A stretch of DNA of 34,951 nt from positions 1 through 34,951 of the forward strand of contig QGUR01000006.1 in assembly GCA_003242205.1 (NCBI GenBank). The letters are read 5' to 3'. How positions within the stretch are numbered: the stretch's first letter is position 1; every line of letters starts with the position of its first letter. This document shows positions 31,958 through 34,951 of the stretch, piece by piece. A program made the translations under genes and the position numbers. The DNA is from Chloroflexota bacterium. Lineage in GTDB: Bacteria > Chloroflexota > Anaerolineae > Aggregatilineales > Phototrophicaceae. The notes under the pieces are model-generated. The model was not told where the DNA came from. It saw only the letters and a program-made list of their open reading frames with translations, and searched no databases.

Positions 31958-33937
31958 ATGACCCAGAGCCCCACGCCCCCTGAGCGCGAGAACCGGCGCG
32001 GGCTATTTTCCGGTTCTGTACCGATGACCCTTTTGCGCCTCGGCGCGCTGGCGTTAATCGACGCTTTTGCTATCTGGCTGATTGCCAACCTTTTCAATGA
32101 TGGCTTTCACCCGCTGGCGATTACGCTGGCCATCATCACACTGGCGATCAACATCATTTTTCTGAACGAGCGGCTTTATCCGTTCCAGTGGCTTTCCCCC
32201 GGTCTGGCGCTGCTGGTCCTGATGGTCGTGTTTCCGGTGCTCATTACGATTTACTATGCGTTTACCAACTATCGCACCGGCAACCTGCTGACCAAGCCAC
32301 AGGCCATTACCCAGATTTTGCGGCGGCCGGAAAACCGCGTGCTGGCCGAAGGGTCGCAGACCTACGGTTACACGGCTTACCGCAACGAGGCGGGCGAGTT
32401 TCTGCTGTTGCTGGAAGGACGTGAAACCGGCGAGTTGCTGGTCGCGCCGCAGAACGAGACCGAACACCCGTTAACTCCGGAACTGGCCGGTCTGGCTGGC
32501 GTCACCTTCAGCGATGATGGCGAGACGGTCGAGGCGATTGAAGGTTACGAGCTTGTGCCGGCGGATGAAATTGCCGCTGCCTTTGAGGGGGTGGAAACGC
32601 TGGAATATGGCCCGCCCATCGGCACAGTGCTGGTCGGCCCGGTTGATCCGGAGGCCGAGGATGGCGAAGGCTATGCATACGATCCGGCGGCCAACCTGTT
32701 CGTCGATTTCACCGGACGCCGCCCCGCCTTTTACACGGCTCAGGTTTTTCGTTCTGGCGAGGGATTCGCGCTGTGGCTGACCGAAGATGGCGGGAATGAC
32801 ACGATCCTGCTGCGCCCGGATGGCCCGGCGGTCGTCAACGGCATACCGCAGTCGATCTACGATTACGTGATCATGAGCGCGCGTGAGCGCACGGCGTCGT
32901 CGAGCGCGCTGGTGGAAGCCGCATTTGGTAACCCGGAAGACCCGATCCAGATTGACCCGTTCTCCGCCAATCGCGCGGCCCGCTTCCAGTCGGTGCTGCG
33001 CTACGAGCCGGAAACCGATTCGCTGGTCAACCAGTTTACGGGCGTCATCTATCGACCGGTGCAGGGTACGTTTCGGCTGGTTCCGGAAAGCGTGCCGCCC
33101 GATCTGGAAACGCCGCCTCCAGAGGAACTTCGTCCCGGCTACTACGTCACGGTCGGGCTGGAAAACTTCACCCGGTTGTTCCGGGATCAGAGTATCTGGG
33201 GGCCGTTCTTCACCGTTTTCCTGTGGACGATTTTCCACGCGGCGGCAGTGGTTTTCATCACCTTCGCTCTGGGGATGGGCATGGCGCTGCTCATCAACGA
33301 CGAAATCGTGCCGATGCGGAAGTTTTTCCGCTCGATACTGCTGATCCCGTACGCAATCCCCGCTTTCATCAGCGTGGTCGTCTGGCGTGGCATTCTGGAC
33401 CCGAATCTGGGCGTGATCAATAACGTGCTTGGCGGGCTGCTGGGCATTGCGCCGAACTGGTATGGCGATGCAATGGCGGCGCGCGCGGCGATCCTGCTGA
33501 TCCAGCTCTGGCTCGGTTTTCCGTACATGATGCTGATTATTACCGGCGCGCTGCAAAGCATTCCGGCAGACATCTACGAGGCGGCCACCGTCGACGGTGC
33601 GAACGCCTTCCAGCGCTTTCGCTCCATTACGCTGCCACTGGTGCTCGTAACAGTTGGGCCGCTGTTGATCGCCTCGTTTGCCTTTAACTTCAACAACTTC
33701 ACCGTCATCCAGTTGTTCAATCGCGGCGGGCCAGCCATCCCCGGCAGCAGCGTGCCGACCGGCTACACCGACATTTTGATCACCTACACCTACCGTCAGG
33801 CGTTTGGCACGGCAGGCGGCACGGATTATGCATTCGCGTCCACGATCAGCATCCTGATCTTTCTGATCGTTGCCGCCATCACGATCTTCAACTTCCGTTT
33901 CACCAGAGGGTGGGAAGAGATTTCGGAAAATGTCTAG
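31958..33937 (+). CDS. malF: sugar ABC permease, MalF-like with a very large periplasmic loop
   Basis: The 659-residue permease has three N-terminal membrane helices (about residues 20-105), as in MalF. A hydrophilic beta-rich loop of about 300 residues (roughly 106-410) follows, including GYTAYRNEAGEFLLLLEGRE and DFTGRRPAFYTAQVFRSGEG. Five C-terminal helices make the transport core. The EAA loop reads EAATVDGANAFQRFRSITLP. Escherichia coli MalF is 514 residues with a ~180-residue P2 loop, so the loop here is much larger. ATG 31958 is chosen; an in-frame start at 31913 lies within the terminator hairpin and would add 15 residues of non-native sequence. malG overlaps the stop by 8 bases. Confidence 0.92.
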   Translation: MTQSPTPPERENRRGLFSGSVPMTLLRLGALALIDAFAIWLIANLFNDGFHPLAITLAIITLAINIIFLNERLYPFQWLSPGLALLVLMVVFPVLITIYYAFTNYRTGNLLTKPQAITQILRRPENRVLAEGSQTYGYTAYRNEAGEFLLLLEGRETGELLVAPQNETEHPLTPELAGLAGVTFSDDGETVEAIEGYELVPADEIAAAFEGVETLEYGPPIGTVLVGPVDPEAEDGEGYAYDPAANLFVDFTGRRPAFYTAQVFRSGEGFALWLTEDGGNDTILLRPDGPAVVNGIPQSIYDYVIMSARERTASSSALVEAAFGNPEDPIQIDPFSANRAARFQSVLRYEPETDSLVNQFTGVIYRPVQGTFRLVPESVPPDLETPPPEELRPGYYVTVGLENFTRLFRDQSIWGPFFTVFLWTIFHAAAVVFITFALGMGMALLINDEIVPMRKFFRSILLIPYAIPAFISVVVWRGILDPNLGVINNVLGGLLGIAPNWYGDAMAARAAILLIQLWLGFPYMMLIITGALQSIPADIYEAATVDGANAFQRFRSITLPLVLVTVGPLLIASFAFNFNNFTVIQLFNRGGPAIPGSSVPTGYTDILITYTYRQAFGTAGGTDYAFASTISILIFLIVAAITIFNFRFTRGWEEISENV

Positions 33938-34828
33938 CATCGTAGCGACCAGAAGAACCAGAGCAGACGAGGGCGAAGACCGCGGGACGCTGCTGCGCCG
34001 GCGCTATCCGGGCCGGCTTGCGGTCAGGCTCGTGCTGCTTGCCATCGCGATTATCTACGCGCTCTTCCCGGTAGTCTGGATCATATCCGTGTCGATCAAT
34101 CCGGCCAATACCAATGTCGTGCGCCAGCTTGTGCCGCCGAACGCGACGCTGCAATGGTATGAAATGCTGTTGAACAGCACCCAGTATCCATTCCTGACGT
34201 GGCTGTTCAACTCCGTCAAGCTGTCCGTCATCACTATGGTGCTATCGCTGGCTGTCGCCACGTTTGGGGCATTCGCGCTGTCCCGTTTTCGCTTTACCGG
34301 CCGCCGGCTGACGCTGCTGACCGTCTTTCTGGTGCAGGTGTTTCCCAGCTCGCTGCTGGTGATCGGCATTTTCAACATTCTGCTGCAACTGGGCATCTAT
34401 GTGGACCCGGTCGCCATAAACACGCATGGCGGGGCGATCCTCGCTTATCTCGGCGGCGCGCTCGGCATCAACACATGGCTGCTCAAAGGGTTTTTCGACA
34501 CCATCCCGCGCGAGTTGGACGAGGCAGCGCAAATCGACGGCGCGACGCACTGGATCTATTTCTGGCGCATTCTGCTGCCGCTGGTGCGCCCGATTCTGGC
34601 GGTTGTCGCCATCCTGATCTTTATCTCGACTTATAATGACTACGTAATCGCTTTGACGCTGCTGCGATCGACCAGCCAGCAGACGCTATCGGTCGGCCTC
34701 AACCTGTTCATCAGCGATACCGGGACTGAATGGGGGGTATTTGCGGCGGGCGCGCTAATGGGCGCGCTGCCGATCGTCGTCCTCTACCTGCTCATGCAGG
34801 ATTACATCGTCGGTGGCCTGACCAGTGG
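33930..34828 (+). CDS. malG: sugar ABC permease, MalG-like, 3' end lost at the contig edge
   Basis: About 300 residues of genuine permease are visible. There is a positively charged N-terminus, then LAVRLVLLAIAIIYALFPVVWI as the first helix and the usual six-helix core. The EAA loop reads ELDEAAQIDGATHWIYFWRI. The family end motif YIVGGLTSG appears at 34803-34829, where MalG proteins normally stop within four or five residues. The frame instead continues to TAA 34899-34901 as an atypical tail. That tail matches sequencing-adapter read-through, so I end the gene at 34828. The ATG 33930 overlaps malF by 8 bases. No ATPase (malK) is in view; Mal-type importers often share a distant one. Confidence 0.9.
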
Positions 34829-34951
34829 CTGGCTCTTTTACACATCTTACGCTTCCGGCGAAGAGGAGAGGGGGGTAGTTTGTGGTGGGGGGCGGCTTTA
34901 AGAAAAAAAAATAGTAGGTACATATGAGAGGAAGGAGCAGCATGAAGCAAA
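34829..34951 (+). other. likely sequencing-adapter read-through and low-quality contig end
   Basis: From 34829 the sequence matches the reverse complement of the Nextera mosaic end, CTGTCTCTTATACACATCT, at 17 of 19 bases. The next 14 bases match the read-1 adapter continuation GACGCTGCCGACGA at 11 of 14. Then come AGAGGAGA, which resembles an i5 index, a G-rich run like a degraded flow-cell adapter, and a run of nine A at 34903-34911. The order mosaic end, adapter, index, flow-cell arm, poly-A is that of a read running past a short insert. The bases after the poly-A carry no meaning. Confidence 0.85.

Follow-up and report, generated by a model that had tools for sequence, protein, structure and literature searches.

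The window, by which we mean the whole stretch of 34,951 nucleotides that was analysed, is contig C428 of a draft assembly that has 557 contigs and 4,682,109 bases in total. Near its end lies a frame that opens at 33930, reads for 323 residues and encodes a binding-protein-dependent transport permease. The permease family PF00528 was recognized with an E value of 2.5e-16 and passed its gathering cut-off (60.4 versus 26.4 bits). The NCBIfam MalG equivalog NF008231 scored 213.6 bits, below the curated cut-off of 261, and the gene is therefore called MalG-like. Ahead of it lie a MalF-like gene, above its NCBIfam cut-off, and a MalE-like gene, below its own. Matches to the permease were obtained in all 61 genomes searched, the window's own genome counted. 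The features of the contig end are collected in Table 1.

Table 1. Features at the end of contig C428, in window coordinates.
Feature	Position	Strand	Remarks
MalG-like ABC transporter permease, genuine part (residues 1-300)	33930..34829	+	PF00528; MalG profile; last four residues cut off
False C-terminus, 23 residues (301-323), and stop 34899-34901	34830..34901	+	translated from adapter
Degraded Nextera (Tn5) mosaic end	34829..34847	+	17/19; first base common to the true gene
Degraded read-1 adapter reverse complement (Nextera)	34848..34861	+	11/14; 28/33 jointly with the mosaic end; alone not significant
Index place AGAGGAGA	34862..34869	+	7/8 match with i5 index S503, reverse complement
Poorly preserved P5 arm	34870..34902	+	15/29, best ungapped offset 34873; better-preserved copies on C191 and C196
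Nine A beyond the end of the library molecule	34903..34911	+	A-runs at the same place in six other tails
Putative overrun noise past the A-run	34912..34951	+	no adapter match

The end of the permease gene was compared in the loci of 24 relatives (L005-L028), built from the best permease matches. All 24 proteins close with G(A/S)VKG (GAVKG in 22, GSVKG in two), and 22 of the alignments stop at window residue 300, four residues short of the relative's end; for the remaining two (L019 and L021) the alignment is stretched into the tail and the protein ends in the same way as in the other relatives. The continuation of the gene itself was observed directly in the same assembly, where contig C131 shares 33 exact bases with window positions 34797-34829 and then proceeds to GAVKG and a stop. 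From the C131 continuation and the ends of the relatives it follows that the break lies at 34829/34830, with base 34829 (C) common to adapter and gene, and that the protein has lost four real residues (AVKG) and gained 23 false ones ahead of the stop at 34899-34901. The warning of an earlier note on this DNA that the stop at 34901 yields a false C-terminus was thus well founded, and the four missing residues add to it. Two of its details needed correction: the frame does run past the true region, but the real end is YIVGGLTSG-AVKG-stop and not YIVGGLTSG; and the tail is adapter as claimed from 34829 onwards, but that first base also belongs to the true gene.

C131 is very probably the contig that follows C428. 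Ahead of the 33 exact bases its start is a poor copy of window positions 34740-34796; positions 1-103 (L366, G000:C131) consist of this error-rich start and the overlap with the last genuine bases of the window. It looks as if damage at both ends kept the two contigs from being merged. When the first 1,800 bases of C131 were compared at the nucleotide level with the relative G008, 44 bases matched, at the gene end only, and the synteny seen in this comparison extends no further than the gene. C131 might come from a second strain in the assembly, which would leave the conclusion on the tail unaffected.

Past the break the reading frame continues for 23 residues without a stop, as it would if the strain carried a variant permease C-terminus whose likeness to adapter arose by chance. 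Homologues of the tail, named beforehand as the result that would speak for such a genuine sequence, were absent: the 24-residue tail gave matches in just five of the 60 other genomes, all at E 0.307 or worse, and the 123-base tail gave nothing below E 0.01 in these 60 genomes. At a lax limit of E 10 the latter drew short matches in 59 of 61 genomes (own counted), the best of which (G055, E 0.0109) overlaps a mosaic-end-like place with three mismatches. Single inexact matches of this kind in relatives are meaningless, since a reversed control pattern produced 14 scattered matches over 12 genomes. Given also the normal gene end on C131, an adapter match far above its controls and the recurrence of the motif at other contig ends (see below), we regard a genuine genomic tail as extremely improbable.

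The Nextera mosaic end (CTGTCTCTTATACACATCT) was matched in the window only at 34829-34847 when up to three mismatches were allowed, and any match at this level occurred in one of 100 shuffles. The read-1 14-mer alone is weak (19 window matches at up to three mismatches versus 9.15 expected), whereas mosaic end and read-1 arm in order agree at 28 of 33 positions, compared with no more than 20 of 33 at any of 69,574 other window positions. The mosaic end is followed directly by the read-1 reverse complement and the adapter reads outwards at the contig end, as in read-through of an i5 arm; this order and position of the pieces were observed directly. Aligned to the full i5-arm read-through template, the tail reached a local score of 30, against maxima of 15.5 for 1,730 window segments, 15.5 for 2,000 shuffled tails and 13.5 for 2,000 shuffled adapters; the i7-arm template scored 15, from the mosaic end alone. 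The counts of 17/19 and 11/14 given in the earlier note were reproduced, and the index-like 8-mer and the nine A that it described are present. The GT-rich arm also lies where it had been placed, but its agreement with P5 was equalled by 154 of 5,000 shuffles and is weak alone.

The mosaic end of Nextera was derived from the ends of IS50, and the first 19 bases of the tail agree with the IS50 outer end at 15 positions and with the inner end at 14, as might be found if a natural IS50/Tn5 end had been inserted in the permease gene. The engineered mosaic end nevertheless fits better (17/19) than either natural end, the synthetic read-1 adapter comes next to it (28/33 jointly) and other tails of the assembly bear either of two library arms, all of which leaves such an insertion a practically negligible probability.

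No adapter was matched in the last 40 bases (34912-34951), and positions 34926-34951 have no second copy in the own genome at up to three mismatches. Adapter could therefore extend to about 34911 and be followed by a chimeric join to another real molecule, for which no source turned up in the genome searches. Short unmatched letters past an A-run are, however, also seen in other tails of the assembly, and overrun noise requires no second event; we consider a join improbable and read these bases as probable overrun noise.

Across the 557 contigs, the mosaic end was found 16 times at up to three mismatches, the window's copy counted, and the reversed pattern gave no match in the same contigs. 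All 16 copies point outwards with 0 to 104 bases left to the contig end (as judged from the cut-off points of the retrieved loci), so that the recurring placement at contig ends, again a direct observation, is the one of Nextera read-through in 16 of 16 cases. Both library arms are present among the tails: longer ones continue into the read-1/P5 arm (e.g. C191, C196) or into the read-2/P7 arm (e.g. C72, C171, C339, C537), and these six carry A-runs where the library molecule ends. In a sample of 60 of the 557 contig starts, five (C30, C35, C36, C55, C60) reached an outward score of at least 13.5, compared with none of 60 internal stretches and none of 60 scored on the opposite strand; when the threshold was lowered to 12, the separation was no longer clean (5/60 versus 1/60 and 2/60). 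The read-1 14-mer alone proved a poor probe of the own genome, with 338 matches at up to two mismatches versus 148 for the reversed control. Further degraded Nextera tails were seen on C35, C72, C102, C138, C171, C178, C191, C196, C247, C252, C339, C441, C498, C514 and C537, and at the contig starts of C30, C36, C55 and C60.

Thirteen index places were chosen by eye from the tails of the mosaic-end copies and the sampled contig starts; C35 and C55 were excluded because the place was unclear and C102, C138, C247, C498 and C514 because their tails were too short. Compared with a list of Nextera indices, five of the 13 fit at 7/8 or 8/8, two at 6/8, five at 5/8 and one at 4/8; of random 8-mers, about 1% reach at least 7/8. 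For index S503, whose reverse complement we take to be AGAGGATA, the fit is 7/8 in the window (AGAGGAGA), 8/8 in C36 (AGAGGATA) and 7/8 in C252 (AGAGGAAA). Among the i7 tails, C171 and C441 both read GGACCCCT, presumably N705 (7/8). The remaining eight of the 13 places do not exceed 6/8, which may reflect a mixture of libraries, or too much damage at these places.

The errors in the copies are not uniform. Ten of the 16 mosaic-end copies carry two errors and six carry three; no copy in the genome has fewer than two, and identification was therefore made through approximate matches. Direct comparison with the adapter revealed that 35 of the 38 wrong mosaic-end bases equal the preceding or the next adapter base, where 15.3 would be expected under uniform errors and none of 20,000 simulations reached 35. 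In the first 33 bases of the window's tail, all five errors copy the preceding adapter base. Illumina phasing errors would give such neighbour-base copies, and the pattern suggests dephased signal in reads that were missed by trimming. The natural reading would be that trimming ahead of assembly removed the clean adapter and left only the bad copies.

The arrangement and location of the adapter pieces, 15 other degraded tails in the assembly and the gene continuation on C131 together lead to the conclusion that the last 123 letters of the contig are error-ridden Nextera adapter, an ordinary assembly artefact that has given the permease a false tail; we hold this as practically certain, and it bears out the contention of the earlier note that adapter from Nextera read-through forms the contig end. 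The sequence of events would be as follows: a short-insert Nextera library molecule would have ended within the malG-like gene, and sequencing would have carried on beyond the insert, first through mosaic end and read-1 adapter, next through the i5 index and the P5 arm, and lastly into a poly-A run and noise. Dephasing of the cluster towards the end of the read would have brought errors into the adapter calls, most of them copies of a neighbouring base; a trimmer presumably missed this degraded adapter, which may then have been left as contig end by an assembler tolerant of weakly supported ends. Chance likeness, a permease with a real variant C-terminus and insertion of IS50/Tn5 were rejected on the controls, the recurrence, the fit of 17/19 versus 15/19 and 14/19, and C131.

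For annotation, the tail should be trimmed off, because a kept stop at 34899-34901 gives a permease with 23 false residues and without its last four real ones. In this assembly no fewer than 15 further contig ends need cleaning up in the same way; genes running into their tails would have false ends. A screen for exact mosaic ends would miss all 16 copies, owing to their two or three errors each.

Copies of the mosaic end were also looked for in relatives, and the pattern occurred in 11 of 60 genomes, with several copies in five: G020 (16), G037 (55), G056 (5), G058 (62) and G060 (65). Among the matches listed, which include none of G060, the copies of G020, G037, G056 and G058 are nearly all exact, and those on the minus strand lie at contig starts. 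The five drafts look untrimmed. Scans of two public collections (genome_contigs and viral_contigs) yielded at least 120 stretches each with the Nextera read-1 arm. Among the matches listed, the arm points outwards within 200 bases of the locus end in 125 of 126 and 118 of 120 cases, respectively, and is exact in 125 of 126 and 119 of 120, the scan pattern having left three positions free. In three public contigs a read-1 arm was seen deep inside, in L186 (2154-2176), L264 (1194-1216) and L097 (3892-3914); these are possibly misjoins via adapter.

In kind the window's case is commonplace, with the slightly unusual trait that an exact-match screen would miss it because of its degradation. Error-bearing tails that survive trimming could form a systematic, largely unscreened contamination of public drafts, marked by dephasing errors. 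We give this broader reading, which is seen in one assembly only, somewhat less than an even chance, and stop short of an even one because just one of 126 and one of 120 arms among the matches listed were not exact, although the scan pattern allowed variation at just three positions. If it were true, degraded tails would give proteins false termini and break contigs needlessly, C428 and C131 being an example.

Compared with MalG, the maltose/maltodextrin ABC permease, the window's gene has the same setting behind MalE-like and MalF-like genes and relatives that end in G(A/S)VKG, but it scores below the MalG cut-off, and its tail differs only as adapter. The Nextera ends of public contigs resemble the window in that the read-1 arm sits at contig ends and points outwards; they differ in being nearly all exact, whereas the window's arm has three errors. 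Adapter contamination at contig ends of microbial genome databases has been published (Moeller et al. 2024, PMC11536531): forward copies are described at contig ends and reverse complements at contig starts, where they block contig merging. Exact copies of AGATCGGAAGAG were counted there, and the word 'Nextera' does not appear in the text. Relative to that study, the degraded form described here is a minor twist on the published phenomenon: in both the adapter sits at contig ends, but there it is exact AGATCGGAAGAG, whereas here it is Nextera adapter with two or three errors in each of 16 copies.
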